Part shown: positions 20,533 through 57,505 of the stretch, piece after piece | Position numbering within the stretch: position 1 is the stretch's first letter | How the letters are laid out: every line of letters begins with the position of its first letter | NCBI GenBank assembly: GCA_029747015.1 | Contig: JAKOGI010000349.1 | Location: forward strand, 391,001-455,000 | Source: Carnegiea gigantea | Taxonomy: Eukaryota > Streptophyta > Magnoliopsida > Caryophyllales > Cactaceae | Length of the DNA stretch: 64,000 nt | Direction of reading: 5' to 3' | Notes under the pieces: model-generated | What the model saw: only the letters and a program-made list of their open reading frames with translations | Database searches by the model: none | What the model was told of the DNA's origin: nothing | Made by a program: the position numbers and the translations under genes

Positions 20533-21205
20533 TTAGTGAGCCAGCATACATCGCCAGTGAGCAGTAACCACGAATACCTGATTCTGTCAACGCATTCACA
20601 ATGAACACTTTTACCTTGATGTTGATTAATACATGCAAAACACTTTGACCTTGACTCTTCTGGTTTTGCTGTATAGTGAGTTGTACCTTATATTGTAGTG
20701 AGCTATGGCTTCACTTTATTGAGCTGTTAGTTATATTCCAGTGGCTGTCAACATATGCATGCTATAGTGAGTTGTGCCTTATAATCTAGTGAGCTGCGGC
20801 TTGAATTTAGTAAGCCATGACAAAAATTTACTGAGCTGTGAATTATATGCTAGTTCCTATCAACATATGCATGCTGCAATAAGTTGTGCCTTATAATATA
20901 GTGAGCTATGGCTTGAATTTAGTGAGCCATGACAATAATTTAGTGAGCTATGAATTACATGCAAGTTCCTCTCAGCATATGCATGCTATAGTGAGTTGTG
21001 CCTTATATTATAGTGAGCTGTACTTTACATCCTAGTGTCTCGTACCTTAAATTTAGTAAGTGGTACCATACATTCAAGTGTTCAGTCTAAAACTCCAATC
21101 TCTTTTCATATACTGTTTCACATATATAGTGAGCTATATCTTATATTATAGTGAGCCATGATATCATTGTAGCGAGCTGTACCTTTTATTCTAGTGTGCT
21201 ATCAC
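20533..21205 (+). repeat. AGTGAGC motif cluster 1 (intron of Ulp1-type gene)
   Basis: About ten exact AGTGAGC heptamers, mostly as TAGTGAGCT, and many one-base variants (AGTGAGT, AGTAAGC, TTGAGC), spaced some 20-60 bp apart. All are on the plus strand, within a probable first intron. Confidence 0.85.
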
Positions 21206-21600
21206 ATTTCCTATAATATTAACATTACATGTAATACTATTTGATAGATCGAAGACAGAAGGGTCAAGCTCAAGCCCTCAAGAGATAATTATGCAAGTTG
21301 TCAGAGACATCTCTTCCGATCAAGTGAACTTTAGGTAATTACCACTTTAAATATATCCAAACAAACACAGTATGGTTCACTATACTAACATTGTCTTTTA
21401 TTTTTTATTGAAGCCCAAAGGATCAAAATAAAACAAATGAAACAAATTAAGGAATGCAAGAGGATATTACTCGTAATTTAGGCCAAGGTATGGCTACATT
21501 ATGCAAGTTTATACGTAATCATCTGAATTGGATATGTACTGAGCAGGGGAAATTGTATTCAAAGGACCTGTACATTATATTTTATGTTAATTCCCGTCAA

Positions 21601-21960
21601 TTAGTGAGCCATAATCTATGCTTTGGTAAGCTATTACAAATGTCCAGTGAGCAATATATACAATTATATTTTGGTGTACCACCATGTAAAGTTAAACATT
21701 CCAATACCTTTTGGTGCGACAGTTCCTATATCTAGTGAGTTTATAATCTCATATTTTAACACTTAGTAAAACTATACATCTACAATTATATTTAGTGAGT
21801 TGAACTGCATTTGTAGTGAGCAAACAATTATGTTTAGTGAGCTGAACTGCAATTGTAGCGAGCAGACAACTATGTTTAGTGAGCTGACCTGTAATTCTAC
21901 AGCAGACAACTATGTTTAGTGAGCTGACCTGTAATTCTAGTGAGCATATAGTTTATTTTT
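21601..21960 (+). repeat. AGTGAGC motif cluster 2
   Basis: Seven exact copies plus variants, between the second and third coding pieces of the Ulp1-type gene. The cluster contains a 40-bp direct duplication (21861-21900 and 21901-21940), each copy carrying one motif. Confidence 0.85.
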
Positions 21961-21970
21961 ATGAGTTGAA

Positions 21971-21972
<2 letters not shown>

Positions 21973-22037
<65 letters not shown>

Positions 22038-22062
22038 GACACACACACGAGCATACGTGCAT

Positions 22063-22087
<25 letters not shown>
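21973..22087. repeat. AC dinucleotide microsatellite
   Basis: About thirty uninterrupted AC units, then a short interrupted part, then a second AC run that passes into TATATA. It lies in an intron of the Ulp1-type gene. Confidence 0.95.
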
Positions 22088-22099
<12 letters not shown>

Positions 22100-23699
22100 G
22101 AGCTCTAGGTTAGATTAAACATTGCACATTTATTTAGTTATACATCTTATTCATTTATACAAAGTACCATGCACAGCTGCAGAAGAAGCAACCAAGGAAG
22201 CTCAACCAAAGGAGCAGGAAAACCTGTCCACACCAAGGGATAAAACATCTGAAGGAAAAACCAGCTCATCAAGTACTACTGCAAAGAAAAGAAGGGTGAA
22301 ACAAGAAGTTAAGAAGAACATAAATATTTGCAGCAGTCCAATCAGTTCAGAAGATGAACAACTCCAAGCTCCCATAGCAGGAGAGAAACAAAAGGCGGTG
22401 ATGGAAAAACAAACTATACATGCTGTGCAAGAATCACAGCCTGCTCAATAGGGAGAGAGAGAACAAAAGCAACAAAAAACAAGAGAACCATCTCAATAAA
22501 ACACTCCAATAGCAGGGCAAAAACAAAAGGTGGTGTTGGAAAAAAGGAAACTAACGCATAATAGAAAATTGGCAACACAGAACAACTAAAGGGGGAAATA
22601 AGAATTCATAACAGAAAATCCCCCAATGTTCCCAAAAACATTGCCCAAGAAAGCTTCGAAAAAATAATCATCGACATTCATCAACAACTTTCAGAGGAAA
22701 CAGATGACACTGTAGAGGAAACCACTTACAAAATGCCTTCCCCTCGGCATGATGATGAATCTGACTCTGATGATGAAGTGTTAGTGAAGAGAATCAAGAA
22801 GATAAAACAAGCAACAAAGTCCAGACCAAAGCAAATGCAAGTGAGGTCAAAAAAGTCTGTTAAGGCATAAGCTGAAAAGAAGAGGCAGGTTACCCAGAAG
22901 AGTCTAAAAACTCTTATAAAGCGTGGACGTCTCTTGGTTTTGAAACATGAAAAAGAACATAGATGCTTAAAATAGCACATAAGTGCTACTGTCCGTGTTC
23001 AAGACCCCAAGTCTGTACAATCTGTGCCAAAGCCTATAGAGCTAGACACATAACCAAAAAGATCTTTCGAACCAGAATGTCATAATCAGGGTTTGTTGTA
23101 ATGATTGACAATTTCAATGAGGCACAAATACAAGCAATACGAGATACAGGGTTTGAAGGATTCCTTCATTTATAAGTAAATGAATTACCGGGGGATTTAT
23201 GCAAATGGCTTGTAGGTAGATTTGACCCAGACTCAGTCACCTTGTACATATCACCTGACAAAAGGATTGAGATTACACCAATTGATGTGCATCTCACATT
23301 TGCACTCCCCATTGGTGGAAGGAAAGTTGAGGAGTTTATGGAAAAAAGCCAAAAGATGCCAAATACAATGAAGTCCTTACTGCATGGAGAAAAGAGTGGA
23401 ATCTGCAAGATGGGACCCCTAAGCTCAGCCAAATACCACAATACATACTAAGCCAAATTGATGCAGGGGAAAGTTTCAAGGGAAACTCTGTGCTATACAT
23501 GGTCTCTTGCTTTTTCAACGATTCACCCTATTTTACTAAGAATGTTGCTAATGTTGAAGGCATAGCAACAATTGATTGGTGTTAGTACACCATCGACAGA
23601 TTGTATGAATATGTCAAAAAGAGGGTTTCAAACTTTGATGGGCCTATTCTCTTCTTGATGGTAAGTTCTTTCCATTCTATTAGAATATCATGTTTTCAA

Positions 23700-24345
23700 T
23701 GAGCACAAACTCACTTTTAGTGAGCTCAATAGATATCCTTAGTGAGCAAACAACATTTTCTATGAGCTGAACATATATCATGGTGTGCAGACCATTTACT
23801 TTAGTGAGCACAACATACATTTTAGTGAGCAAAATATGTATTTTAGTGAGCACAACTTAGTGAGCAAAATATGTATTTTAGTGAGCACAACAATAATTTT
23901 GGTGAGCTATGGAGAACTTGATCACATGTGACAATTGTCTATTACATTGATCTATAATGACCATTTTGGTGAGCACACATCACGTAGCACACATACATAT
24001 AGGAATTATTGTTACGAAACATTACTTCATTTTAGTGAGCTGCAATATATTTTAGTGAGCAGAACAAAATCTTTACTAAGTAGAGGACTATTTTAGTGAA
24101 CAGACCATATAACTTAGTGAGCATGACATGTCTTTTAGTGAGCAACAGTTTAACTTTGGTGAGCTCTAAATGACTCGTTCATAGATGAAAATTGTCTGTT
24201 ACATTAATCTATGTTAACAAATTTAGTCAGCCAAATAAAAATTATTATTAGACAACATTAGTTTATGTTAGTGAGGTAGTATACATTTCTGGTGAGTAGG
24301 AACTATATTTTAGTAAGCATAGATTCATTTTTGGTGAGCTATATA
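23700..24345 (+). repeat. AGTGAGC motif cluster 3
   Basis: About eleven exact copies, mostly as TTTAGTGAGCA, with GGTGAGC and AGTAAGC variants. It sits in the intron between the G-P-I-L-F-L-M and L-Y-F-Y-G-V coding pieces. Confidence 0.85.
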
Positions 24346-24931
24346 GAACTAATTACAATGAACATTTCTATTACAGATGCTATATTTTTACGGAGTTCTC
24401 TTAACAAGAAGGACGGTTGAGAGGCAATTCCCAACCATCAAAGGCTGGACAATAGATTAAGGGAAAGAGTCAAAGAAGAGAGAAAGGCTAATCAAGTTGG
24501 TGCAAAAGAAGTGCCAAAAGGATTTGGAAAGGGTAGAGTAGAGCCTCCAATACAAACAACCATAGAAGTGCATGTTGAACCACAACCACAAAAGGAACCT
24601 CAGCCACAACAGGAAGAACAGTCAAGATGTTTTCACAAAATGATGAAACATCAGAGTTGGAGGTATCATTTAATTCATTTGTAATAATTAAGCAGAATGA
24701 AAGAATATAAACAAACATCTATCTAACATCATACAATACTTGAATGATGTCCACGTTGCAGAAAGATATGGAAAAAGTGGCTGAAGTAACAAAGGCTTTA
24801 GCAAGTGCATTCACGACGTACAAAACCTTCGTGGACTACTTGGCAAAAAGGCACCAAAATAAGGAAACACTTAAGAAAATAAGAGATAAGATAATAAGCA
24901 TGTTCTCTTTATACTGTGAGGCTCAAATCTC

Positions 24932-24992
24932 AAAAAGGGGATGAAAATCCTGAGATACCAAAGAGAAAAAGGGGATGAAAATCCTGAGATAC
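24932..24992. repeat. 34-bp tandem duplication in the Ulp1-type gene
   Basis: AAAAAGGGGATGAAAATCCT with the bases that follow it occurs twice with a 34-bp offset. A 34-bp change would shift the frame if coding. Confidence 0.85.
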
Positions 24993-25134
24993 TATCATTC
25001 AGTTAAGATGATGAATGGTGGAACAGAGCTACTGTACTTGAAGCGATAATTGAATTGGAGAATGCTTTGGTAAGGCAACAAAAGACCAGCAGCACCACCA
25101 ACAAAAGTTCTGCATCAAGGCAAGGGGCAATGAC

Positions 25135-25510
25135 ATGCCCAGTTTTAAATTTATTGACGATAGCCAATGCCCAGCTCTTGCAACACCAGTAATACTAGTA
25201 GCACTTCACACACCACCTTCCTCCCTACCTGCAAAAATAGATCAGATACCACCGCCCTCCGTTTCTGCAAAGACACATCAGACATCACCACCTTCCCCCT
25301 TACACAGACACATCAGACACTACCACCCCCCCAAAAATACTTCAGACACCACCACCCTCCCCCTACATAGGCACTACATACACCACCACCCTCCCCACCA
25401 CAACACCCACCACGAATTCTTGAGACACAACCACCACATGAATCATCTCAAACACCACCACCACCACCAATTCCAGAAACACAAACAGAGCAGCAAGAAG
25501 GGCAGAAAAT
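25135..25510 (+). pseudogene. Pro/His-rich low-complexity linker of the Ulp1-type gene
   Basis: The CACCA-rich DNA is open in more than one frame and encodes Pro/Thr/His-rich sequence. It lies where plant Ulp1-type MULE genes have a variable linker before the protease domain. Which frame was used cannot be told. Confidence 0.5.
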
Positions 25511-25604
25511 AACTGAAGGAGAGTAAAAATCTCCTCGCAGAGAAGATGGAAAAAAAAGAAATCAGCAAATAAAGCTGGTAAGGATTTTCAGAGAGCAGAC
25601 AATT

Positions 25605-25990
25605 ACTTTCAGTGAGTAGACTGTTACTTTCAGCGAGTAGAACATACTTTTTAGTGAGTTGTGTGCAAATTGTTGATAAAATGATAATTTTATGTCACAG
25701 TGAGCTTGTGAGCCTACATGACTTTTCGATGGCTTTAAGAACAAGCAAAGAGGACCTTGTTAATATTCAATATTTTTTTTTAGTCAGCTGGTGTGCATTG
25801 TCAGTGAGTAGAAGTTAAATTTTAGTGAGCAGATATTATAACTTGGTAAGCAGAACATATATGTTAGTGAGCAGAACATATAGTTTAGTGAGTTATGAGC
25901 AACAATCTCTTTTTGATGAGCACAAGAAACATCTTAGTGAGCATAACATCTATTTTAGTAAGCACTTATACATGTTATATGTTCATTGAG
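25605..25990 (+). repeat. AGTGAGC motif cluster 4
   Basis: Exact copies (TTTAGTGAGCAG and similar) with AGTGAGT, AGCGAGT and GGTAAGC variants, in the intron before the protease coding pieces. Confidence 0.8.
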
Positions 25991-26729
25991 CTCTATTGTC
26001 ATCATCTCTGATATAAACTTTTGCAGAAGAAGAGCATAGCAAGAAGGCAAGACATCAACTGAGGAGAGAGAAAGGGTCAATAACAGAGCCCTTCTGCTCT
26101 CCTTTTGTGTAAAGAATAACAAAGATTATAGGGGAGTTGTCAGCCCAGGAGAAGATCGTTGTTGAATATGTATTTCATCCATTACAAGACCTTGATTCAA
26201 AGTAAGCCCAAAACTATCAAACGGAAAACACTTACAAACACTTAAATTATAATGAATATGTCTTTACATTTTTTTTCCGTTTCTTACTAAATCAGTGAAG
26301 AATTGTTTGATATCGAAACACATGTTGCACATTGGTATCACATGTTAACTATGCATCCAAGAGAGTACATTGATGCACATGTGATCAATGTCTGGGCTGC
26401 TATCCTCAATAACTTGGAAAGAAAAAGAAGTGAAGGATCTTGAAGAAGATTTTTTACACTAGTTGGTGCAAAGTAAATATATACTTATTTTTTTTTTTCA
26501 CAAATACAAATGATCAAACACCTAATAATACTACTCTAAAAATGCAACCAACTTTGGACCCTTGATAAAAGCAGCAAAATCAGAGAAGGCAAGGTACATT
26601 GATTTTGTAAGAGCTCTTCAGAGAGAATTCCAAAGATGTGATAAATGGATATCAACAAAATAATTCTAGCTGGTAGGCATTAATCTAATACATTTTAATT
26701 GTACATTAAAAGACCACATTATATAATAT

Positions 26730-27360
26730 TAATCATTCTCCAATTTAAATTTTCGGTATGTCACAAGAAGCACTTCTTCATCTTTTGCGTTGATTTAAAG
26801 GAGGAAAGACTTGATATTATGGACAACATTCACATAACTACTCCATACAAAATAACATATGAAGAAACACATCTATTAGTAGTATGTTCAAATGCTCATT
26901 GATTCATTTACTTTATAATAAATCAACACACATCTGGCGAGCTGACAAATTTGGTGAGCTAAAACATATTCCTGGTGAGCTAACACATAATCTTGGTGAG
27001 CTAACACACGTATTTGGAGAGCTAAGAGATATATGTAGTGAGCTAAGACACATATGTCATGTGCTGAGCTAACACATATTCTTGGTGAGCTAACACACAT
27101 ATTTGGTGAGCTATTAACCAATTCCACTGAGCTGAACAAGGTTGTTTGTTGTACACAGGCAAGAGCTTTTGGGAGATTTCTTCGAGAGAGTGTTGGCCAC
27201 CCCAAACATGAAATTGTGAAGAAGATGAAACTAGTATGAATGAGAATGCCATGGAGAACAATAGATAATGTCACAGACTGTGGAATTTTTTGCATAAGGC
27301 ACATGGAGTCTTACTTTGGCGAAGCAGATATATGGGATTGTGGTTTTAAGAAAAATGAAG
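26730..27360 (+). pseudogene. Ulp1 catalytic domain, His-Asp-Cys residues still visible
   Basis: The piece near 26766-26825 encodes K-K-H-F-F-I-F-C-V-D-L-K and then D-I-M-D-N, which hold the catalytic His (codon 26771-26773) and Asp. After an intron with AGTGAGC repeats, 27156-27360 encodes W-R-T-I-D-N-V-T-D-C-G-I-F with the catalytic Cys codon at 27279-27281, then M-E-S-Y-F-G and W-D-C-G-F. An in-frame TGA at 27237-27239, upstream of the Cys, breaks the chain. The WRTxxNxxDCGIF form is typical of plant transposon Ulp1 domains rather than of cellular SUMO proteases. Confidence 0.8.
26936..27135 (+). repeat. AGTGAGC/GGTGAGC motif cluster 5
   Basis: Here the form GGTGAGCTAACACA predominates and repeats every 20-30 bp, with one exact AGTGAGC. 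It lies in the intron that separates the His/Asp piece from the Cys piece of the Ulp1 domain. Confidence 0.8.
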
Positions 27361-27774
27361 TAAGTCTACCAAAAATACTTTCTCTACAAAAGTATCTTAA
27401 AATAAATACAACACCTATTAATGGTTTGTTTCCTTTTTTTTTCCGGTAGGAAAAAAATATGTTTGATGTAATGCAAGCACAATACTGCTATGAGATAATC
27501 AACAAGGAAGAAAATATATGCAGGAATAGAGTGAAGAGGCTCACAAAGGAGTTCCATGATAAACAACAAGCAGAAATGAAGGCAAAATCAGGCCAGTCTC
27601 AAGTGCCAACAACATCAGTAATCAACCTTGCTTTAAGTTCGACTAATTTTAGGAACGTATGTAACCAATACTCTCAAATGAACACTATTACTATGCTTAC
27701 CTTTAGTCATGGTGAAGTACTAGTATCCAACATTTACTATTGGATATTTTATATCTTTTGATATGCTTAATTCT

Positions 27775-28520
27775 AGGGAGCTAGTAGACCAAACCAGTGA
27801 GCTATCAGCCAAACCTAGTGAGCTATTTCTTTTGCTATGCTTAATTCCAGTAATGAATGCAAAATCAAACTAGACTGATATTTTTTTTTACAATGTTAAG
27901 TCAAATGTGAAAGTGTACAAAATGTCAATATCATAGAATGCTACATTTTGATGATGTTAAATAATCAAACAGATGAAAATAGTTGTGTAAAATATACTGA
28001 GCTAACAGATGAAGCTAGTAAGCTATGAATCTTCAGCAGTGAGCAACGTATTAAATGTCAAAAGTATTCACCCTATTATAAACTTCAAAATTATTCAACA
28101 TGATTTACTTAATTTTCAAATACAAAATTAATTCTCATCACATCACATCACAAAAAAATAAGAACATCATAATCAATAAGAATACAAGTGTGAAATTTAT
28201 TAATCAAAATACAAATGTACATTTGACATTTTGCTCAAAAAAACTATTGAGTAGCCCAAATACAAAAACTTCATTAATGCTAGAAGCCAATGCCCTTTCT
28301 CACGATACCAAAATTTCATGCAGCAACAACCTAAATCAATTCAGAAAACACGTATTTTTAATGAGCATATACATGTATTTAGTGAGCAGCGCATAAATGT
28401 AGTGAGTGGAACTTGTAAGACTAACAATGTGAGAACCGTAAAATGTAGTAATCCAGTACATATTTTTAGTAAGTAAACACACTATATTAGTGAGCATATT
28501 AACACTTTCAATGAGTCAGA
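27775..28520 (+). repeat. AGTGAGC motif cluster 6 (spacer between the two MULE genes)
   Basis: Five or so exact copies (two near 27801 and 27819, others near 28040, 28382 and 28489) with variants, spread more loosely than in the introns. It lies downstream of the last Ulp1 coding piece and upstream, on the plus strand, of the transposase 3' end. Confidence 0.7.
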
Positions 28521-28582
28521 ACACATAATATTTTTGCTGGCCTTAGCAAACTCCAAAAACATATTACTACAAGAAACATAAC

Positions 28583-28694
28583 TTATTCAATCAGATTGTT
28601 AATAGAATTTAACTTGAGGTTGAGATACATCTCCTCCATTCCTTGAAGAAAATCTTGTCTTCCTTGATCTAACAATGTTTGATATCTTCTTCGA
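28583..28694 (-). pseudogene. 3' end of the MULE transposase, cut off by the array
   Basis: On the minus strand this stretch is open from the array junction to a TAA at 28585-28583. It encodes a helical, Glu/Leu-rich tail (Q-T-L-L-D-Q-G-R-Q-D-F-L-Q). Placed directly after the frame that ends at 54761 (K-S-T-S-D), it continues with no frame change. This marks the original continuity of the gene before the array was inserted. Confidence 0.55.
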
Positions 28695-29663
28695 TGTTAG
28701 CTTTCTTAAAGCTCACATTGAGTTTTTTAATATGTTTTGATGAAAGACAAAAAAGAGATTAATCAATTCACATATTCATCATGTTATATTTGTATGATCT
28801 TGAGATTATAATGCTAATTATAATTGATAAAATTATGATTGATAGTATCCTTTTTGGTTATGGTTGCTTCCTTATTATTAGGGATCCTTATGTGGTAAAT
28901 ATTTAACTTTCAAGATTTAAATCCTTGATATTTGCCTTGACTATGGAAAGGATTGTAAATCATCTCAAAGAGATTCTCAATCAACTAAAAATGGAAGTAG
29001 TCGTTGAAAAATCTTCATCAGCCCAAAATAAGGAAATCGTAGTTAAAATAATCTCAAATCAAGCCAAAATTAGCCTTCTAGCCTTTGGTTGCTGAGATTA
29101 CGAACATTGCAAAGACACTGAATAGTAGTCCACGGCATTGAATTAAAGCTGGATTCCAAGGGCTTGAAGATCAGCTGAAAATTTTCCTTCCATATTTGAA
29201 TGTAACGGTTACTTCCTTTTTTTGTAATAAAAAGGAAAGACTTTCCAGCTGAGTAGTACACACAAGAAAGAGAGCACAAGCAATTGTCATACTCAATATT
29301 CACTTACATACATTGCGCTTTAACTTGCTTTACGTTTATTCAAGTTGTATTGTTCAAATTGCAAGTAGGGTGGGATTATAGAGTTGAAGGGCCAGCTCTA
29401 CCAATAACTTATTAAAGGTTCAACTTGTAGCTTGAAACTTAGAGTAAGTGTATTCTAGAGTTGTGTAATCACTCCTAATAAAATTGGGTTAATCTTAGAG
29501 TTAGGAAACTTTAGGTGGGGACTAAGTCTGGTTGAGGTTAACCTCGTTAAAATTGCTTGTGTCTTGTCTACATTTACTTTCTGTATTTCTATTTTGATTA
29601 TTTTGAGACTTTGATCTCAGTCCACCCTCTAAGGTGATTTAACTAGCCAAAATTAGGCCAACA
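28695..29663 (+). repeat. LTR 1 (left end of array)
   Basis: 969 bp, TG...CA. It begins TGTTAGCTTTCTTAAAGCTC, like LTRs 6-10. It has an AATAAA at about 29477 and a TATA-like TAATAAAAAGG near 29223. Confidence 0.9.
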
Positions 29664-29721
29664 ATTGGTATCAGAGCTAGTACTATTTTTATGAGACTTC
29701 ACCGTCTAATAGTTCGATCCC

Positions 29722-30688
29722 ATGCCTACTTATGATTGTGACTCTGACTACCCTTCGCTTTTTAAAGGTACTAATTATTTTTTGTGGTAGGAAACAATGA
29801 AACATTATATCAAGCACAAGGGTCTCGATTTTTGAAAGATCATGGTCAAATGTCCAATAGTTATTGGGAAACCCGAAAAATGAATATGCTGAAGATGATT
29901 ACAAGCGGATATCCAAAAATTTTAAAGGATAGACATTTTATATTGTGCTCTTACTGTTGATAGTTATGAGTTTATCTCACATTGCAATAGTGCTAAGAAA
30001 ATTGGGGAGACTCTTTATAATTTATATGGCACTAATCAAAATGTGGTATTAAGTGAATTTGTGGCACAGGATGAACTAATCATGGAAGGAAATAGTAAGC
30101 AAGTTGAGGATCACCAACTACATGTAGAACAAAAGCATGAAAATGATGATCCAATTCAACGATTGATACATAATGATGTCAAGCATACCCAAATTGAGGA
30201 ATTTCTTGAAAATGGTGAGAAAAATAATGATTCTAGTTAGTCATCTATTCTCCAAATTGGTAATGATGAGGTAACATCTATAATTGAATTTTCCAATAAT
30301 AGTTTTTTCGCCAAGTGGTCATATTTCTTATGATTTAAATGCCACACCAAATTTTTAACTTTCAAAAGTTCTTAATTGTGGTGTTAAATCAAAAAAATGT
30401 GTTAAGATTGAGGGAAAGAAAAATTTTATCTCATTAATTTTTTTTACTTCTAACAATTTTGAATCCAAGAAAAAAAGGGCATGAAGATTTGGTTGAGTAG
30501 CTTCATTCTTGAAGAAATCAAAAAAGAATGCTCATGTTTGCGGGATATTATTGATTCCTCATTTACGTACTAATAATGAATTTTCAATAGAATTTGATCC
30601 TCTTGAAAATTTTGGTGGACAAGGAAACATTGGAGCTTTGCAAAGGCATACGAAAAGTTATGGTTTGCCAAAAGTAAAGACAAACTAA
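29722..30688 (+). pseudogene. Unit 1 gag-like frame, strongly broken
   Basis: Begins M-P-T-Y-D and F-K-G-T-N-Y-F but has a stop in place of a Gln (TGG-TAG), a stop after G-L-D-F and a one-base frameshift near 29872. Only 30043-30240 stays open. The most decayed of the left-hand units. It is preceded by an intact primer-binding site at 29664. Confidence 0.75.
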
Positions 30689-31489
30689 GTTCATTTGTTT
30701 TGTCATTGCTTAGATTTCAAGACCCTGAAATACAGTTCAAGACCTTAAACTGTAGGCTGAAACTCGAAATTTTTGGGGTGACTGAACGAAGGGCTTGAAT
30801 TTCTGTTTCAACAACATGAATAGAATTCAAAATTTGAATTCTTACCAAATGGAAGATGTTATCTTTGCATGATTTACTTCCTATTTGAGAAATTTTGATT
30901 TTCAAATTTTTGAATTTTAATTTGTTTTATTATCTTTGGAATGTGAGCATGCTTAATATTCCAATATATCTTATACTATTATGACATGTCATTATGCACA
31001 TATGATCACAATGTTTTTGTCCATAATTATTATGTTCCACAATACTTGCATAAATGATACTACTGGTTTCTATAAGGGAAAAAGTATATCACTTGATCAT
31101 TTTTCAATAGCCTTGATTTGCTCTTGATAGGGGGAGAAATTTGTTACTATATGTTAATCCCTTGTTACATCCTTATGTTGCTTACGAAAATTTCAAGTCA
31201 ACGGGATTAGCGTATGTGATTGGTTTTGTTGTTGGTATCTAACCCCTTATATGTTTTTTATGAGTGCCACAGATTAAGGGGGAGTATTTTTCATTGATTT
31301 TTAAGGGGGAGCTATATATGTTTACTATAATTTTTGTGCTTCAATTTTTCCCTCTCCTCTAGTGCTATCTTTTTGATGAAATGCAAAAAGCGGGAGAAGT
31401 ATTTGGAAAACTTTTCATGGTGTGTCATTCAAAATTGTATAGATATGTTATTTTTATTGGGTTTTGTCTTTCATCAAAATGGGGGAGAT

Positions 31490-32451
31490 TGTTAGATTTT
31501 CTAAAGCTCACATTGAGGTTTTTAATATATTTCGACCGAAGACAAAAAAGAGATTAATTAATTGACATATTCATCATGTTACATTTGTATTATCTTGGGC
31601 TTACAATGTTAATTATAATTTATAAAATTATGATTGATAATATCCTTTTTGGTTATGGTTGCTTCCTTATTATTAGGTATCCTTATGTGGTGAATATTTG
31701 ACTTTCAAGATTTAAATCCTTGATATTTGCCTTGACTATGGAAAGGATTGCAAATCATCTTAAAGAGATTTTCAGTCAACTAAAAATGGAAATAGCCGTT
31801 GAAAAATCTTCATCACCTCAAAATATGGAAGTGGCAGTTGAAAGAATCTCAAATCAAGCCAAAATTAGCCTTCTAGCCTTTGATTTCTGAGATTGCCAAG
31901 ATTTCAAAGACACTGAATTAAAGCTAGATTTCAAGGGCTTGAAGATCAGCTGAAAATTTTCCTTCCATATTTGAAAGTAATGGCTGCTTCAACTCTTTTT
32001 GTTATAAAAAGGAAAGAGTTTGCAACTGAGTAGTACACACAAGAAAGAGAGCACAAGCAATTGTCATACTCAATACTTACTTGCATACATTGCGCTTTCA
32101 CTTGCTTTACGTTTATTCAAGTTGCATTGTTCAAGTTGTAAGTGTGGTGGGATTATAGAGTTGAAGGGTCAGCTCTACGAGTGACTTATTGAAGGGTTAA
32201 CCTATAGATTGGAACTTAGAGTAGGTGTACTCTAGAGTTGTGCAATCCCTCGTAAAAAAATTGGGTTAATCCTAGAGTTAGGGAACTCTAAGCGGGGACT
32301 AATTCTGGTTGAGGCTAACCTCATTAAAAATTACTCGTTTCTTGTCCACATTAACTTTTTGCATTTCTATTTTGATTATTTTGAGACTTTGATCACAACC
32401 CTATCTAGTCCCCCCTCTAAGGTGACTTAACTAGCCAAAGTTGGGCCAACA
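31490..32451 (+). repeat. LTR 2
   Basis: 962 bp. It begins TGTTAGATTTTCTAAAGC. The poly(A) signal position reads AAAAAA rather than AATAAA. Confidence 0.9.
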
Positions 32452-32509
32452 ATTGATATCAGAGCTAGTACTATTTTTATGAGACTTTACCGTCTAATAG
32501 TTCGATCCC

Positions 32510-33473
32510 ATGTCTAGTTATGATTTCGACTTTGACGACCCTCCGCTTTTTAAAGGTACTAATTATTTTTTGTGACAGGAAACAGTGGAATGTTATATCA
32601 AGCTCAATGGTCTCGATCTTTGGGAGATCATGGTCAAAGGTCCGATAGTTATTCAAAAATCGAAAAATGAATACACTGAAGATGATTACAAGCTTATATC
32701 CAAAAATTTTAAAGCTATAAACATTTTATATTGTGCTCTTACTGATGGTGTTTATGAGTTTATCTCACATTGTGATAATGCCAAGGAAATTTGGGAGACT
32801 CTTTATAATTTATATGTACTAATCAAAATGTGGTATTAAGCGAATTTGTGGTGCCGGATGAACTAATCATGGAAGGAAATGGTAAGCAAGTTGTGGATTA
32901 CCAACTACATGAAGACCAAGAACATGAAAATGATGATCCAATTCAACGGTTAATACATAATGATGTCAAGCATGCCCAAATTAAGGAATTTCTTGCAAAT
33001 GGTGAGAAAAATAATGATTCTAGTTAGTAATCCATTCTCCAAAGTGGTAACGATGAGGTAATATCTATAATTGAATTTTCAAATAATAGTTTTTCTCCAA
33101 GTGGTCATATTTCTTATGATTTAAATACGACACCAAATTTTCAACTTTCAAAAGTTCTTAATTGTGGTGTTAAATCAAGAAAATGTGTTAAGATTGAGGG
33201 AAACAAAAATTTTACTTCATTAATTTTTCTTACTTCTAACAATTTTAATCCAAGAAAAAAGGAGCATCGAGATTTGGTCGAGCAACTTCATTCTTGAAGA
33301 AATCAAAAAAGAATGTGCATGTTTGTGGGATATTATTGATTTCTCATTTAAGTACTAATAATGAATTTTCAATAGAATTTGATCCACTTGAAAATTTTGG
33401 TGGACAATGAAACATTGGGGCTTCACAAAGGCATATGGAAAGTTATGGTTTGCAAAGAGTAAAAACATGCTAA
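32510..33473 (+). pseudogene. Unit 2 gag-like frame, broken
   Basis: The ATG at 32510 is kept, but the conserved Trp of F-L-W-Q is a TGA. A one-base deletion near 32815 shifts the frame after L-Y-N-L-Y. The stop of the first part (AGTTAG) is at 33025-33027. The primer-binding site is mutated to TGATATCAGAGC. Confidence 0.8.
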
Positions 33474-35255: not shown

Positions 35256-35313
35256 ATTGGTATCAGAGCTAGTACTATTTTTATAAGACTTTACCATCTA
35301 ATAGTTCGATCCC

Positions 35314-43654: not shown

Positions 43655-43712
43655 ATTAGTATCAGAGCTAGTACTATTTTTATGAGGCTTTACTATCTTA
43701 TAGTTCAATCCC

Positions 43713-44733: not shown

Positions 44734-45480
44734 ACTGTAGGCTGAAACTCGAAATTTTTGGTGTGACTGAATGAAGGGCTTGGATTTCTATTTCAACAAC
44801 ATGAATAGAAGTCAAAATTTGAATTCTTACCAAATGGAAGGTGATGTTATCTTTGCATGATTTACTTCCTATTTGAGAAATTTTGATTTTCAAAATTTTA
44901 AATTTAATTTGTTTTGTCATCTTTGGAATGTAAGCATGCTTAATATTCCAATATATCTTATACTATTATGACATGTGATTATGCACATATGGTCTCAATG
45001 TTTTTGTCCATAATTGTTATGCTCTGCAATACCTGCATAAATGATACTACTTGTTTGTATAAGGGAAAACGTATATTACTTGATCATTTTTCGACTGTCT
45101 TGATTTACACTTGATCGGGGGAGAATTTCGTTACTATATGTTAGCCCCTTGTTACATCCTTATGTTGCTCACGAGAATTTCAAGTCAATGGGTATTAGCG
45201 TATGTGATTGATTTTGTTGTTAGTATCCAATACCTTATATGTTTTTTATGAGTGGCATAGATTAAGGGGGAGTATCTTTCATTGATTTGTTAAGGGCGAG
45301 CTATATGTGTGTGCTATAATTTTTGTGCTTCGATTTTTCCGTCTCCTCTTATGCTACCTTTTTGATGAAATACAAAAAGAGGGAGAAGTATTTGGAAAAC
45401 GTTTCATGGCGTGTCATTCAAAATTGTATGGATTTGTGATTTTTATTGGGTTTTGTCTTTCATCGAAAAAGGGGGGGAAT

Positions 45481-46461: not shown

Positions 46462-46519
46462 ATTAGTATCAGAGCTAGTACTATTTTTATGAGGCTTTAC
46501 TGTCTTATAGTTCAATCCC

Positions 46520-47480: not shown

Positions 47481-48286
47481 GTTCGTTTATTTTATCATTG
47501 CTCCGATTTCAAGGCCCTGAAATACAGTTCAAAGCCTTGAACTGTAGGCTGAAACTCGAAATTTTTGGTGTGACTGAATGAAGGGCTTGGATTTCTATTT
47601 CAACAACACGAATAGAAATCAAAATTTGAATTCTTACCAAATGGAAGGTGATGTTATCTTTGCATGATTTACTTCCTATTTGAGAAATTTTGATTTTCAA
47701 AATTTTAAATTTAATTTGTTTTGTCATCTTTGGAATGTGAGCATGCTTAATATTCCAATATATCTTATACTATTATGACATGTGATTATGCACATATGGT
47801 CTCAATGTTTTTGTCCATAATTGTTATGCCCTGCAATACCTGCATAAATGATACTACTTGTTTCTATAAGGGAAAACGTATATTACTTGATCATTTTTCG
47901 ACTGTCTTGATTTACACTTGATCGGGGGAGAATTTCGTTACTATATGTTAGCCCCTTGTTACATCCTTATGTTGCTCACGAGAATTTCAGGTCAATGGGC
48001 ATTAGCGTATGTGATTGATTTTGTTGTTAGTATCTAATACCTTATATGTTTTTTATGAGTGCCAGAGATTAAGGGGGAGTATCTTTCATTGATTTGTTAA
48101 GGGCGAGCTATATGTGTTTGCTATAATTTTTGTGCTTCGATTTTTCCGTCTCCTCTTATGCTACCTTTTTGATGAAATACAAAAAGAGGGAGAAGCATTT
48201 GGAAAACGTTTCATGGCGTGTCATTCAAAATTGTATGGATTTGTGATTTTTATTGGGTTTTGTCTTTCATCGAAAAGGGGGGGGAT

Positions 48287-49267
48287 TGTTGGCTTTCTTA
48301 AAGCTCACATTGAGTTTTTTAAATATATTTTGACTAAAGACAAAACAGTGATTAATCAATTGACATATTCATCATGTTATATTTGTAGTATCTTGAGATT
48401 ACAATGCTAATTATAATTGATAAAATTATGATTGATAATATCCTTTTTCGTTTATGGTTGCTTCCTTATTATTAGGGATCCTTATGTGGTAAATATTTGA
48501 CTTTCACGATTTAAATTCTTGATATTTACCTTGACTATGGAAAGGATTGCAACTCATCTAAAAGAGATTATCAATCAGCTAAAAATGGAAGTAGCCGTTG
48601 AGAAATCTTCATCAGCTCAAAATATGAAAGTGGTAGTTGAAAGAATCTCAAATCAAGCCAAAATTAGCCTTCTAGCTGTTGGTTGCTGAGATTGTCATCA
48701 TTTCAAAGACACTGAACCGCAGTCTAAGGCATTGAATTGAAGGTAGATTCCAAGGGCTTGAAGATCAGCTGAGGATTTTTCTTCCATATTTGAATGTAAC
48801 TACTTCAACTCTTTTTGTTATAAAAAGAAAAAACTTTACAGCTGAGTAGTACACACAAGAAAGAGAGCACAAGCAATTGTCATACTCAATACTCACTTGC
48901 ATACATTACGCTTTAACTTGCTTTACGTTTATTCAAGTTGTATTGTTCGAGTTGTAAGTAGGGTGAGATTATAGAGTTGAAAGGTCAACTCAACCAACGA
49001 CTTATTGAAGGGTCAATATATAGCTTGGAACTTAGAGTAGGTGTACTCTAGAGTTGTATAATCTCTCCTAATAAAATTGGGTTAATTCTAGAGTTAAGGA
49101 ACTCTAGGCGGGGACTAAGCCTAGTTGAGGCTAACCTCGTTAAAAATTGCTCGTGTCTTGTGCCCATTTACTTTCTGCATTTCTATTTTGAATATTTTGA
49201 GAGTTTGATTATCACCCTATTCACTCCCCCCACTAAGGTGATTTAACTAGCCAAAATTGGTCCAGCA
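48287..49267 (+). repeat. LTR 8
   Basis: 981 bp, nearly identical to LTRs 6 and 7. It begins TGTTGG and ends CCAGCA. Confidence 0.9.
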
Positions 49268-49325
49268 ATTAGTATCAGAGCTAGTACTATTTTTATGAGG
49301 CTTTACTGTCTTATAGTTCAATCCC

Positions 49326-50287
49326 ATGCCTATTTATGATTTTGACTTTGATTACCCTCCGCTTTTTAAAAGTCCTAATTTTTTTGTGGTAGGAAACAAT
49401 GAAACGTTATATCAAGCACAAGGGTGTCGATCTTTGAGAGATCATGGTTAAAGGTCCAATAGTTATTGAAAAATCGGAAAATGAATATGCTGAAGATAAT
49501 TACAAGCGGATATCTAAAAATTTTAAAGGTATAAACATTTTATATTGTGCTCTTACTGTTGATATTTATAAGTTTATCTTATATTGTGATAGTGCCAAGG
49601 AAATTTAGGAGACTCTTTATAATTTATATCGTATTAATCAAAATGTGGTATTAAGCAAATTTGTGGCGCAGGATGAACTAATGATGGAAGGAAATGTTAA
49701 GCAAATTGAGGATCACCAACTACATGAAGAGCAAGAGCATGAAAATGATGACCCAATTCAATGGTTTATACATAATGATGTCAAACATGCCCAAATTGAG
49801 GAATTTCTTGAAAATTGCGAGAAAAATAATGATTCTTGTTATTCATCTATTCTTCAAAGTGGTAAGGATGAGGTAACATCTATAATTGAATTTTCAAATA
49901 ACAGATTTTTTCCAAGTTGTCATATTTGTTATGTGATTTAAATACGACACCAGATTTTTAACTTTCAAAAGTTCTTAATTGCGGTGTTAAATCAAGAAAA
50001 TGTATCAAGATTGAGGGAAAGAAAAATTTTACCTCATCAATTTTTATTACTTCTAACAATTTTGAATCCAAGAAGAAAAAGGCATCAGGATTTGGTCGAG
50101 CAACTTCATTATTAAAGAAACCAAAGAATGCGCATGTTTGTGGGATATTATTGATTCCTCATTTACATATTAATAACGAATTTTCAATGGAATTTGATCA
50201 TCTTGAAAATTTAAGTGGACAAGGAAATATTTGAGCTTGGCAAAGGCATATGGTAAGTTATGGTTTGCCAAAAGTAAAAATAAGGTG
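49326..50287 (+). pseudogene. Unit 8 gag-like frame, broken
   Basis: Same defects as units 6 and 7. An extra two-base insertion near 49934 ends the second open part early (49645-49941), and a TGA appears near 50231. Confidence 0.8.
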
Positions 50288-51093
50288 AGTTCGTTTATTT
50301 TATCATTGCTCCGATTTCAAGGCCCTGAAATATAGTTCAAGGCCTTGAACTGTAGGCTGAAAGTCGAAATTTTTGGTGTGACTGAATGAAGGGCTTGGAT
50401 TTCTATTTCAACAACATGAATAGAAATCAAAATTTGAATTCTTACCAAATGGAAGGTGATGTTATCTTTGCATGATTTACTTCCTATTTGAGAAATTTTG
50501 ATTTTCAAAATTTTAAATTTAATTTGTTTTGTCATCTTTGGAATGTAAGCATGCTTAATATTCCAATATATCTTATACTATTATGACATGTGATTATGCA
50601 CATATGGTCTCAATGTTTTTGTCCATAATTGTTATGCTCTGCAATACCTGCATAAATGATACTACTTGTTTGTATAAGGGAAAACGTATATTACTTGATC
50701 ATTTTTCGACTGTCTTGATTTACACTTGATCGGGGGAGAATTTCATTACTATATGTTAGCCCCTTGTTACATCCTTATGTTGCTCACGAGAATTTCAGGC
50801 CAATGGGCATTAGCGTATGTGATTGATTTTGTTGTTAGTATCTAATACCTTATATGTTTGTTATGAGTGCCATAGATTAAGGGGGAGTATCTTTCATTGA
50901 TTTGTTAAGGGCGAGCTATATGTGTTTGCTATAATTTTTGTGCTTCCATTTTTCCGTCTCCTCTTGTGCTACCTTTTTGATGAAATACAAAAAGGGGAAG
51001 AAGTATTTGAAAAACGTTTCATGGTGTGTCATTCAAAATTGTATGGATTTGTTATTTTTATTGGGTTTTGGCTTTCATCGAAAAGGGGGAGAT

Positions 51094-52073
51094 TGTTAGC
51101 TTTCTTAAAGCTCACATTACGTGTTTTATTATATTTTGACGAAAGACGAAACAAAGATTAATCAATTGAAATATTCATCATGTTATATTTGTATTATCTT
51201 GAGATTACAATGCTAATCATAATTGATAAAATTATGATTGATGATATCTTTTTTTGCTTATGGTTGCTTCCTTATTATTAGGGATCCTTATGTGGTAAAT
51301 ATTTGACTTTCAAGATTTAAATTCTTGATATTTACCTTGACTATGGAAAGGATTGCAAATCATCTAAAAGAGATTATCAATCAGCTAAAAATGGAAGTAG
51401 CTGTTGAAAAATCTTCATCAGGTCAAAATATGAAAGTGGTAGTTGAAAGAATATCAAATCAAGCCAAAATTAGCCTTCTAGTTGTTGGTTGCTATGATTA
51501 TCATCATTTCAAAGACACTGAACCACAGTCTAAGGCACTGAATTGAAGGTAAATTCTAAGGGCTTGAAGATCAGCTGAGGATTTTTCTTCCATATTCGAA
51601 TGTAACTACTTCAACTCTTTTTGTTATAAAAAGGAAAGACTTTGCAGCTGAGTAGTACACACAAGAAAGAGAGCACAAGCAATTGTCATACTCAATACTC
51701 ACTTGCGTACATTGCGCTTTAACTTGCTTTACGTTTATTCAAGTTGTATTGTTCGAGTTATAAGTAAGGTGAGATTATAGAGTTGAAAGGTCAACTCTAC
51801 CAATGACTTATTGAAGGGTCAACCAATAACTTGGAACTTAGAGTAGGTGTACTCTAGAGTTGTGTAATCTCTCTTAATAAAATTGGGTTAATTCTAGAGT
51901 TAGGGAACTCTAGGCAGGGGCTAAGCCTGGTTGAGGCTAACCTCGTTAAAAATTACTCGTGTCTTATGCACATTTACTTTCTGCGCTTCTATTTTGATTA
52001 TTTTGATACATTGATCATCACCCTATTCGCTCCCCCCTCTAAGGTGATTTAACTAGCTAAAATTGATACAACA
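51094..52073 (+). repeat. LTR 9
   Basis: 980 bp. It begins TGTTAGCTTTCTTAAAGC. It is more diverged from LTRs 6-8 than they are from each other. AATAAA is retained. Confidence 0.9.
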
Positions 52074-52131
52074 ATTAGTATCAGAGCTAGCACTATTTTT
52101 GTGAGGCTTTACCGTCTAATAGTTTGATCCC

Positions 52132-53093
52132 ATGCCTATTTATGATTTTGACTTTGACTACCCTCTGCTTTTTAAAGGTACTAATTTTTTTTTTTGTGGT
52201 AGGAAATAATGAAACGTTATATCAAGCACAGGGGTCTCGATCTTTGAGAGATCATGGTTAAAGGTCCCATAGTTATTGAGAAATCGGAAAATGAATGTGT
52301 TGAAGATAATTACAAGCGGATATCTAAAAATTTTATAGGTATAAACATTTTATATTGTGCTCTTGCAGTTGATATTTATAAGTTTATGTTATATTGTGAT
52401 AGTGCCAAGGAAATTTAGGAGACTCTTTATAATTTATATCGTATTAATCAAAATGTGGTATTAAGCGAATTTGTGGCGCAGGATGAACTAATGATGGAAG
52501 GAAATGTTAAGCAAGTTGAGGATCACCAACTACACGAAGAGCAAGAGCATAAAAATGATGACCCAATTTAACGGTTTATACATAATGATGTCAAACATGC
52601 CTAAATTGAGGAATTTCTTGAAAATTGCGAGAAAAATAATGATTCTTGTTATTCATCTATTCTCCAAAGTGGTAAGGATGAGGTACCATCCATAATTGAA
52701 TTTTCAAATAATAGTTTTTCTCCAAGTTGTCATATTTGTTATGATTTAAATACCACCCCAAATTTTTAACTTTCAAAAGTTCTTAATTGCGGTGTTAAAT
52801 CAAGAAAATGTATTAAGATTGAGGAAAAGAAAAATTTTACCTCATTAATTTTTCTTACTTCTAACAATTTTGAATCCAAGAAGTAAAGGGCATCCGGACT
52901 TAGTCAAGCAACTTCATTATTGAAGAAATCAAAGAATGCGCATGTTTGTGGGATATTATTGATTCCTCATTTAAGTACTAATAATGAATTTTCAATAGAA
53001 TTTGATCCTCTTGAAAATTTAACTAGACAAGGAAACATTAGAGCTTAGCAAAGGCATATGGTAAGTTATGCTTTGCCAAAAGTAAAAATAAGG
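52132..53093 (+). pseudogene. Unit 9 gag-like frame, most decayed of the right-hand group
   Basis: The ATG at 52132 and the early residues are kept, but several added stops (for example in the acidic part and the Lys-rich part) leave no long open frame. The ancestral defects of units 6-8 are also present. Confidence 0.75.
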
Positions 53094-53901
53094 TACGTTC
53101 GCTTATTTTATCATTGCACCGATTTTAAGGCCCTGAAATACAGTTCAAGGCCTTGAACTATAGGCTGAAACTCGAAATTTTTGGTGTGACTGAATGAAGG
53201 GCTTGGATTTCTATTTCAACAACATGAATAGAAATCAAAATTTGAATTCTTACCAAATGGAAGGTAATGTTATCTTTGCATGATTTACTTCCTCTTTGAG
53301 AAATTTTGATTTTTAAAATTTTAAATTTTAATTTGTTTTGTTATCTTTAGAATGTGAGCATGCTCAATATTCCAATATATCTTATACTATTATGACATGT
53401 GATTATGCACATATGGTCTCAATGTTTTTGTCCATAATTGTTATGCTCCACAATACTTGCATAAATGATGCTACTTGTTTCTATAAGGGAAAACGTATAT
53501 TACTTGATCATTTTTCGACAGTCTTGATTTACTCTTGATCGGGGGAGAATTTGGTTACTCTATGTTAAGCCCTTGTTACATCCTTATATTGCTTACGAGA
53601 ATTTCAGGTCAATGGGCATTAGCGTATGTGATTGATTTTGTTGTTAGTATCTAATACCTTATATGTTTTTTATGAGTGCCATAGATTAAGGGGGAGTATC
53701 TTTCATTAATTTGTTAAGGGGGAATTATATTTGTTTGCCATAATTTGTGTGCTTCTATTTTTCCTTCTCCTTTTGTGCTACCTTTTTGATGAAATGCAAA
53801 AAGGGGGAGAAGTATTTGGAAAACTTTTCATAGTGTGTCATTCAAAATTGTATGGATATGCTATTTTTATTGGCTTTATCTTTCATCAAAATGGAGGAGT
53901 T

Positions 53902-54760
53902 TATTGGCTTTCTTAAAGCTCACATTGAATTTTTTAATATGTTTTGACGAAAGACAAAAAAGAGATTAATCAATTGGCGTATTCATCATGTTATATTTGT
54001 ATTATCTTGCGATTACAATGCTAATTATAATTGATAAAACTATGATTGATAATATCCTTTTTGGTTTCCTTATTATTAAAGATCCTTATGTGGTAAATAT
54101 TTGATTTTCAAGATTTAAATCCTTGATATTTGCCTTGACTATGGAAAGGATTGCAAATCATCTCAAAGAGATTCTCAATCAGCTAAAAATGGAAGTAGAC
54201 GTTCAAAAATCTTCATCAGCTTAAAATATGGAAGTGGCAGTTGTACGAATCTCAAATCAAGTCAAAATTTTCCTTCCATATTTGAAAGTAACGGCTACTT
54301 CAACTCCTTTTGTTTTAAAAAGGGAAGACTTTGCAGCTGAGGAGTACACACAAGAAAGGGAGCATAGGCAATTATCATACTCAATATTCACTTGCGTGCA
54401 TTGCGCTTTAACTTGCTTTACATTTATTCAAGTTGTATTATTTAAGTTGTAAGTAGGGTGGGATTATAGAGTTGAAGTGTCAGCTCTACCAACGACTTGT
54501 TGATGGGTCAACTTATACCTTGGAACTTAGAGTAGGTGTACTCTAGAGTTATGTAATCCCTTCTAATGAAATTGGGTTAATCCTAGAGTTTGAGAACTCT
54601 AGGCAGGGACTAAGGCTGGTTGAGGCTAACCTCGTTAAAAATTATTCGTGTCTTGTCCACATTTACTTTCCACATTTCTATTTTGATTATTTTGAGACTT
54701 TGATCATCACCCTATTCACTCCCCCCCAAGGTGATTTAACTAGCTAAAATTGGGCCAACA
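53902..54760 (+). repeat. LTR 10 (right end of array), with internal deletion
   Basis: 859 bp. It lacks about 120 bp compared with the others, with the junction near 54268-54272 at a short T-run shared by both sides. Its first bases are TA instead of TG and it ends CCAACA. The poly(A) signal is mutated to AATGAA. Confidence 0.85.
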
Positions 54761-56923
54761 TCTGATGTACTCTTCCTCCTTACATTCCTTTCACATTTCT
54801 TTCTCAAACCTTTAGGGTTACCAATGATTTTATTACTGGCACAAGACTGTTGATCATTTTTAGTGTCAGAGACATAAACTAAACCCACAAGAACACCAAC
54901 ATCAGCCTTTAACTTGGCAAAAGCTTCTTCATATAGCTTTCTTACTTGAGTATTTGATTCACTTGCAAGAAGCAACGCCTCAAATTACCTATGTAGCTAA
55001 ACCCTTTATGTGGAACTAGGAACACCAACTGTATTACCACTTGGAACTTCTTCTACAACTAGAGGGGTCTAGCTAGCCTAGTCCATCGTTTCAAAATATA
55101 TTGATCAGGGACTTTAGGCACACAATGAATGTTGAAAATCCGTAAACAGTGGAGGCAAAGAATACCACTCTCATTGTACTTTTTACAGTCACAAACAATA
55201 TTTTGGTCTAGAAGATTAAACTTAACCACAAACCCAAACTTCTTCGAAACGCAGTTCTCATACACAACATATGTACGCTCTGTACCGTAGGAGGTTTCAC
55301 TTGAGCTAAGGAGACCTTGATAGCACCCTTCTCCTTTAATGTATTCATTCTCTAACACTTTGTACAAGTTGTTCATATAGATCTTCGAAGCATGCTACAA
55401 AATGCTAACATGTGGCAAGTACATCTCGGGAAATCCATCCTTATTTTTCACATTTTCATGGTTTTCCTTAATCCTCCCCTCAGTAACAACATTACATAAT
55501 ATATTGTAAAAATCAAACAAACCACAAGTGGCATTGACTCTCTTTGACAAAGAAGCATTTGTTGACTCACTTCTTTGTGACGATAAAAGGCCACCAGAGA
55601 AAACATCCTTGCAAAAAGTTGGACACCAGTTTTCTTTCAATTGATACAATCTAACTAACTAAGCATTTTCAACACATTTATACTCTTCAACCAGCCTAAA
55701 ACACAAAAGCAGTGAGCAGAAAGTAATAAGTTAGTGAGCAGAAAAATGTATTGTGAGCAGAATGCATAGTCTAGTGAGCAGACACATATAACCTTGGTGA
55801 GCGGAGACAAGTAATGAGTGAGCACACAGTAATACCTTGGTGAGCATATTAATAAACAGAAAATAAAGAGGGGCTCACCTTTGCCAACAAAAATTAAACT
55901 CTACTTCTGTATTACATCTCATCAAAACATGGTCAAACTTATCAATAAATCCACCCAAAACCCTAGGATGACTAATATTCTTTTTTGAGTGTGTCAAGTA
56001 CACAACCCATGCTTTGCCATAGGGAAGACCTTTTCAATAGCATTTGCTATAGAAAATACTTGGTCCGTCCTCATAGTTTTGGGTTACACATTATCCATAG
56101 CTTCCAAAAATGTTTCATATAACCAAACAAAGCTCTCAATCTTCTCATTCATCAAAAATCTACACCCCACCATAACGTTCTTAGCATGATGATTCATACA
56201 AATAAAAGATACACATATCATCTCATAATGGTTGGTCCTATATGTCGTGTCAAATACAAGGAGATCACATTTCATTTCCAAAAGGAGCTCAACAAACAAT
56301 AATCCTTGTCCAATTTAAACTTATAAACAAATCTTGCTCGTTGACAGTCCTAGATTCTAAAATACACATCAAATGATTGGCATCGCCCCCCATCTAAAGT
56401 CTTCTTAACTTTATTTGCAATACTATCGTAGGCATCCCTTTCACTAAAATCGAGTAATAGCAAAGCCCCGACCTCATTTCTTAGAAGCCAATAAGCATGG
56501 GAAACTTTTACACTATTTCTTCTCATCTTTTACAAAAAATCCACTTCCCGGGACACCTTTTAGTACCATGTTTGCTGTAATAAAACTCCCTTGAACGAAC
56601 CTCTTGTGAACCCTCTCTCTTCCGTAACTTGTCACATCTAATGGAAAAACCCTTATGGAAAGTATAATCATTGTATATGTCAAATGCTGCATCTATAAAA
56701 CCGACTCTTTTATCAATCAACTCTAATTCATCAGCTTCCTTCACTTCAACAATACATTCATCACCATCTACACGTTTCTCTTTATCAATCACAACATAAT
56801 TAGATACACCACCAACAATATTACCGTCATTAGAAGCCACACCATTTTCTTTTAAAACACCAATAGGATTACACAAAATTCTAGCATAATTATCAACATC
56901 AATAGTCTCAGCAACAGAACGAT
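54761..56923 (-). pseudogene. FAR1-type transposase: catalytic and SWIM exons (right of array)
   Basis: Gives the main body of the transposase gene described at 28583-57907. Visible parts on the minus strand: FAR1 zinc-binding domain 56760-56523, DDE core 56299-55960, the L-Y-Q-L-K-E-N-W and R-S-E-S-T-N segment 55649-55560, SWIM zinc finger and Y-I-L-K-R-W-T at about 55200-55080, and a basic tail ending at the array junction. An intron full of AGTGAGC motifs separates the core from the R-S-E-S-T-N piece. Confidence 0.82.
55705..55850 (+). repeat. AGTGAGC motif cluster 7 (intron of transposase gene)
   Basis: Four exact copies and several GGTGAGC and TGTGAGC variants within 150 bp. The motif is on the plus strand and so antisense to the transposase gene. 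Confidence 0.85.
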
Positions 56924-56974
56924 CTAATGTAGATATTAAAAATGAAGTATCATATGCAAAAACAACATAGTTTT

Positions 56975-57505
56975 TATGGTGAGCACAATCTTAATTATAG
57001 TGAGCCAAACGCTTGTGTCAGTGACCAGAAAATGCTCTGTAGTGGAAGGCAACAGTTTTTTTTTATAGTGACCTATACTGATAGTGAGCTGTTATGTTCC
57101 CTGTTAGGTACAAGATTAATTATAGTGATTACATTTGGCAAGCAGAGAGCTGATTTGTGATTGCTGAATACAAGCTTAATCCCAATGAGCTAAATATATT
57201 TCTTTAGTGAGCCAAGGACTATATTTAGTGAGCACATAACTCATATTAGTGAGCTGTTGTTTCTCGTATATACATAGCAACAATGAAAATATCATCTAGA
57301 GAAACAAACATAATATTTATGGTGAGCTATAATACAAAATCGATGAGCACATAGTTCAATCCTAGTGAGCCAAAGGTTTCTTTTAGTTAGTAAAAAACTG
57401 CTTTGTGGTACAGGGCAACATATTTTTCATAGTGAGCTAAATGTATACCTTTAGTGAGCCAATGACTATATTTAATAAGCACATAACTCATAACAGTGAG
57501 CTATC
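56975..57505 (+). repeat. AGTGAGC motif cluster 8 (first intron of transposase gene)
   Basis: About nine exact copies and many variants between exon 1 and exon 2 of the transposase gene, again on the plus strand. Confidence 0.85.

Follow-up and report, generated by a model that had tools for sequence, protein, structure and literature searches.

We studied a 64-kb stretch of the genome of the saguaro cactus Carnegiea gigantea (Cactaceae, Caryophyllales; contig JAKOGI010000349.1, positions 391,001 to 455,000, hereafter the window), in which a Mutator-like element (MULE) carries dense arrays of the heptamer AGTGAGC in its non-coding parts, in one orientation and at a spacing of chiefly 21 bp. 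The element has two convergent genes, an accessory gene on the plus strand, which is the Ulp1-type gene of a first-pass annotation of this DNA, and a FAR1-type transposase gene on the minus strand. By analogy with the VANC proteins of Arabidopsis, the arrays would be cis-acting sites for a factor encoded by the element, probably its PMD/Ulp1-type accessory protein, with an anti-silencing effect, and we give this reading a probability of about one half (0.52).

On the plus strand of the window we counted 51 copies of AGTGAGC, of which 38 lie at 20535-28489 and 13 at 55711-57495, exactly the numbers that the first-pass annotation had estimated by eye. Its reverse complement was present twice in the 64 kb, at 20187, in the left end of the element, and at 63007; the earlier statement that all copies lie on the plus strand is therefore right for the clusters and wrong for the copy at 20187. 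After removal of a 26-kb nested insert (see below), the element measured 12,023 bp and held 51 forward and 1 reverse copies. In 300 dinucleotide-preserving shuffles of the same sequence there were 0.80 forward copies on average and never more than 3, and a chance origin of the enrichment was rejected on this count. None of the 51 copies was found in exons (5,618 bp), and all of them lay in the 6,405 bp of non-coding sequence, the exon limits being approximate, as we placed them by eye with the help of open frames and of sequence conserved between the element and two further copies. The window scan found no forward copy outside the element or inside the nested array, and a single reverse copy outside the element. 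We rejected the motif as a feature of the nested Copia array, which has no site. The enrichment over shuffled sequence, the clustering in introns and spacer, the near absence from exons and nested array and, within the window, the rarity elsewhere thus agree with what had been proposed.

When the frequent variant GGTGAGC was added, the element presented 64 forward and 2 reverse sites. The 64 forward [AG]GTGAGC sites fall in eight intervals, all read on the plus strand: five introns of the accessory gene, the spacer 3' of it, one transposase intron, and the 5' intron or upstream region of the transposase gene. In the accessory gene, the arrays occupy intron 1 (20507-21245, 10 AGTGAGC) and intron 2 (21340-22169, 7 AGTGAGC), both with approximate limits, intron 3 (23661-24375, 15 [AG]GTGAGC including 11 AGTGAGC), and two further introns at 25541-26023 (4 AGTGAGC) and 26893-27157 (6 [AG]GTGAGC including 1 AGTGAGC). 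The spacer at 27662-28690 has 5 AGTGAGC. On the transposase side, one array lies inside an intron at 55661-55875 (6 [AG]GTGAGC including 4 AGTGAGC) and the other at 56975-57859 (11 [AG]GTGAGC including 9 AGTGAGC). Intron 2 also contains an (AC)n microsatellite of about 56 units at 21973-22087, adjoining its array.

The sites stay on one strand although the two genes run in opposite directions, so the motif is a mark of the element rather than of a transcript, as the first-pass annotation had argued. Most sites are intronic, as they would be for a signal at the RNA level, e.g., a splicing or intron-retention element, and we regard such a signal as very improbable: in the spacer, and in the transposase gene although it is read from the minus strand, the sites are still on the plus strand, the opposed transcripts would therefore bear different sequences, and a transcript-level signal was rejected on these strand grounds.

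The arrays are regularly phased. Gaps shorter than 200 bp between neighbouring [AG]GTGAGC sites of the window element measured 20-22 bp in 25 of 54 cases; in 2,000 trials with uniform placing in the same intervals the mean was 1.9 such gaps and the maximum 7. The spacing was chiefly 21 bp and multiples of 21 bp, more regular than the 20-60 bp given in the first-pass annotation. The 20-22 bp peak was also present in the two copies used for comparison throughout, copy A (C6:582001-602000; 27/50 gaps) and copy B (C9:515001-535000; 30/62), in eight diverged copies (24/55) and in 16 short-element loci (110/227; see below for both). Exact pairs of TAGTGAGC separated by 13 bases, which gives the 21-bp spacing, numbered 2,080 + 1,946 = 4,026 genome-wide, and the reversed pattern at the same spacing was found 0 times, on which ground a composition effect was rejected. 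A distance of 21 bp corresponds to two turns of B-DNA. Helical periodicity of motifs in the VANC-type anti-silencing system was reportedly described by Sasaki and colleagues in 2022, and this feature is present in the window element. A strand-fixed, phased, non-coding motif would suit any cooperative DNA-binding protein, and the binder is here putative only; the sites might thus be bound by a host protein, an activator or chromatin factor, either exploited by the element or used by the host as a mark. We consider a host binder rather unlikely, given that within the window the motif hardly occurs outside the element and that the precedent with the same layout is element-encoded.

Conservation of the motif was inspected in diverged relatives. 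A search with the PMD-like exon of the accessory gene gave at least 151 matches, the best 150 of 1,413 candidates having been scored. From 15 listed places at 69% protein identity or less, eight copies were chosen by protein alone, with their sequence unseen, and about 900 bp downstream of the exon were examined in each. The motif was in the same intron in 8/8 copies, with 66 forward sites (gene orientation) and 0 reverse; a loss of the motif in related copies, which the first-pass annotation had named as a refuting result, was thus seen in none of the relatives tested. The motif is kept, then, among copies at 61-69% protein identity, although some of this divergence between the proteins reflects the decay of copies that are dead.

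A consensus of intron 3 was built from six copies (the window element, copy B, L051, L055, L056 and L057); copy A and L053 were dropped, and L052, L054 and L058 were not entered. It presented 22 perfect [AG]GTGAGC cores, no other core with one mismatch and no reverse core, and 17 of its 21 gaps were of 20-22 bp, while neighbouring spacers were 0.447 alike, versus 0.34 from composition. Since a decaying tandem repeat should not show perfect cores beside poorly alike spacers, the consensus may be read as a sign of selection on the cores while the family was active. The same comparison bears on a passive minisatellite, in which a functionless 21-bp unit would have been multiplied by slippage in non-coding DNA. 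Tandem Repeats Finder does give arrays of 21, 42 and 112 bp, and such arrays would be free to expand in introns, but perfect cores next to dissimilar spacers, a core and a strand that stay the same in all eight intervals while the spacers differ, and retention of the motif in all eight diverged copies make this origin quite improbable.

The element extends from 20023 to 58115, wider than previously claimed, with degenerate ends and the nested insert at 28691-54760. Its limits were set by comparison with copies A and B: the left end is common to the three, and the right end to the window element and B (copy A has an N gap there). The element is flanked by the target-site duplications ATAAAACAGT (20013-20022) and ATAGAACAGT (58116-58125), which match at 9 of 10 bases; duplications of 9-10 bp, a mark of MULEs, are exact in two short relatives (L039 and L040, see below) and imperfect in copy B. 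The MULE transposase domain (PF10551), another such mark, was recognized in the copy B counterpart with E = 4e-24, and FAR1 (PF03101) with E = 7.5e-9 in copy B and 6.1e-5 in the window, both domains being above cut-off in copy B; a SWIM match (PF04434, E = 0.0032) was below cut-off. In the window, the minus-strand transposase gene comprises a 3' exon region with the SWIM-like part (54769-55660) and exons with the MULE and FAR1 domains (55876-56974), both broken. The search for relatives of the transposase found 107 proteins, and the named ones were mostly FAR1-RELATED SEQUENCE.

The accessory gene, traced on the plus strand from open frames, has a large exon region with a PMD-like part (22170-23660) and C-terminal exons that are Ulp1/C48-like (26296-27661), both broken in the window copy; the H, D and DCG blocks of C48 can be seen by eye in the C-terminal frames, in the order H ... 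D ... DCG. PMD gave a weak match in 4 of 26 family proteins. The accessory protein, searched as a profile, retrieved 113 proteins, and those with a named organism were all from Carnegiea gigantea. Sequence search with two profiles gave no match among solved structures, and a structure prediction of one family protein had a mean predicted local distance difference test score (pLDDT) of 47.9, too poor for comparison.

Short non-autonomous elements share the termini and the motif. Five of them (L036, L037, L039, L040 and L045), followed base by base, were 1.9-2.4 kb long within approximate borders and held 16-22 forward sites each. Clear, exact target-site duplications were found for L039 (10 bp) and L040 (9 bp), and the right part of the short elements matches the transposase-side end of copy B. 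The terminus was found within 4 edits in 14 of 16 short loci and within 5 in L041 and L048. A search with the terminus only gave at least 40 places, the best 40 of 477 candidates having been scored. Two of the 40 fall in the stretch that the list of genome-wide pairs covers: one is the query, and the other, C1:4888494, had a motif pair 318 bp upstream (1/1 independent places). That short elements, which need the transposase in trans, carry the sites would also fit binding by the element's own transposase, which has a FAR1 DNA-binding domain, or by a transposition complex, in the service of mobility and not of silencing. We find this unlikely: the outermost forward sites of the window element lie about 0.5 kb from its left end and about 0.6 kb from its right end, and the sites fill introns far inside and are not in the shared terminal sequence.

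The anti-silencing reading would work as follows. The inferred binding protein would be a product of full-length members, with the PMD/Ulp1-type accessory protein as the likeliest candidate, and would recognize TTTAGTGAGC or TTTGGTGAGC. Since the sites follow one another on one strand at a distance of two helix turns (21 bp), proteins on neighbouring sites would sit on the same face of the DNA and could bind together. Dense loading of the introns, the spacer and the transposase 5' region might then remove silent chromatin marks or keep them off, and both genes and the element ends would thereby stay usable. The short non-autonomous elements, carrying arrays of their own, would be served in trans, and silencing would be countered both in cis and in trans.

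The layout of the arrays resembles that of known systems, above all VANC21 and VANDAL21 of Arabidopsis (motif YAGTATTAY). According to Hosaka et al. 2017 (PMC5735166), VANC21 targets carry motif arrays in one orientation, for which binding was seen both in vivo and in vitro and around which methylation is lost; the motif is short, lies in introns and non-coding parts in many tandem copies of one orientation, and is nearly confined to its own family. The cactus element has this layout of tandem, one-orientation, non-coding arrays, and within the window its motif is similarly confined. The VANC6/VANDAL6 motifs AGTTGTCC and AGTTGTAC also form tandem arrays in non-coding parts, but their sequence is different from that of the cactus motif. 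The core starts with AGT in YAGTATTAY, in AGTTGTCC/AGTTGTAC and in the cactus TAGTGAGC, after a pyrimidine in both VANC21 and cactus; three letters prove little and are a lead only. In contrast to VANDAL21 and VANDAL6, the cactus element has a FAR1-type transposase and an accessory protein that is weakly PMD/C48-like and gave no DUF1985 match. VANC targets are reported to change fast, whereas AGTGAGC is kept across the diverged copies described above.

Other MULEs share single features with the cactus element. The Ulp1-bearing VANDALs (KIU / Kaonashi) also combine a MULE with an Ulp1-type accessory gene and, in a review (PMC13317346), are said to recognize their own motifs; they are a VANDAL lineage in that account, whereas in the cactus element the Ulp1 match is below cut-off and the transposase is of FAR1 type. 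In PMC6446971, the Jittery group (group 36, dicots and monocots) is given FAR1 plus SWIM or CCHC, and VANDAL SWIM and CCHC and no FAR1. Jittery/FAR1-type MULEs are like the cactus element in having FAR1 in the N-terminal part and a SWIM-type transposase, but are listed there with one open reading frame, whereas the cactus element adds the second, convergent gene and the motif arrays. VANC structures, then unpublished, are mentioned in two meeting reports, and would permit direct comparison.

Several results weigh against the anti-silencing reading. The coding parts are broken in the window element as well as in copies A and B, the copies inspected in detail. PMD (PF10536) matched the copy A counterpart with E = 0.0074 and 15.9 bits, below the cut-off of 34.9, and Peptidase_C48 (PF02902) gave E = 0.0022 and 18.3 bits, below the curated cut-off of 20.7, on a composite of two copies, with no match on the single-copy read-through of the accessory gene from copy A; the Ulp1 label of the first-pass annotation is thus weak. 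The accessory protein gave no match to DUF1985 in sequences that are broken or partial, so that a remote relative could escape. VANDAL membership was rejected on the FAR1 domain and the mostly FAR1-related named relatives; the element is not classed as a VANDAL because the transposase feature of that group was looked for and was absent, and the parallel drawn earlier with VANDALs stands for the layout and falls for the lineage. The five short elements have 1-5 reverse sites each, unlike the one-orientation rule; 13 of these 15 sites are no more than about 180 bp from the left end, where the full-length copies examined do not have them to that extent. Furthermore, the short loci were picked by motif and are therefore not informative on how often the motif is kept. 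Among the aligned copies, core columns matched the consensus only slightly better than the others (0.848 vs 0.820, circular-shift p = 0.03), which also speaks for a minisatellite, although a small advantage would be the natural outcome if these copies have died. In an unselected comparison, units lying 21 bp apart had an identity of 0.61 in the core and 0.42 in the spacer, values close to those that one ancestral unit could reach by neutral decay; because one unit was picked for a perfect core, the core-spacer difference is partly expected under neutrality.

The insert at 28691-54760 stands outside the motif system: it has no AGTGAGC and is missing from copies A and B. A unit of about 2.8 kb is repeated in it about nine times in tandem, with 86-94% similarity to the copy at 30001-32800, and the insert carries Copia gag and primer-binding-like TTGGTATCAGAGC sites; it is a tandem long terminal repeat-gag array and not an ordinary retrotransposon. 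Beside the element, a minus-strand frame at 59862-60290 showed a weak match to Pif1 helicase 2B (E = 0.003, below cut-off) and is perhaps a Helitron remnant. An open frame at 14149-14544 encodes the N-terminal part of a SKA2-like kinetochore protein (PF16740, E = 2.1e-9) and is possibly an exon of a host gene. At 1781-2239, a 230-bp unit is present in two tandem copies that are 93% alike.

The layout and its probable logic are already known; lineage, accessory domains, motif and motif stability differ here. We found no report of such arrays in cacti in a literature search by titles and abstract openings, which did not extend to Sasaki et al. 2022, the likeliest place for arrays in other eudicots, where some of these points may already be published; nor did we find, judging by titles, a paper on AGTGAGC as a transposon motif, or literature on Mutator-like elements of Carnegiea gigantea. 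We tentatively suggest, as a broader possibility held with less confidence than the role of the arrays itself, that sequence-specific anti-silencing exists outside the VANDAL lineage: a PMD/Ulp1-like protein of a FAR1-type cactus MULE would read helix-phased AGTGAGC arrays and serve many short elements in trans, with one motif kept while the proteins diverged, by independent invention or through an accessory module moving between MULE lineages. Self-encoded, sequence-specific anti-silencing has so far been worked out in Arabidopsis VANDALs. If the suggestion is true, the strategy would be wider than these, or mobile between lineages, for it would be at work in a plant of a distant eudicot order, beside another kind of transposase and through a single conserved motif phased at 21 bp; the helical phasing would be directly testable, and the motif and its protein would be a new pair for directed removal of DNA methylation.

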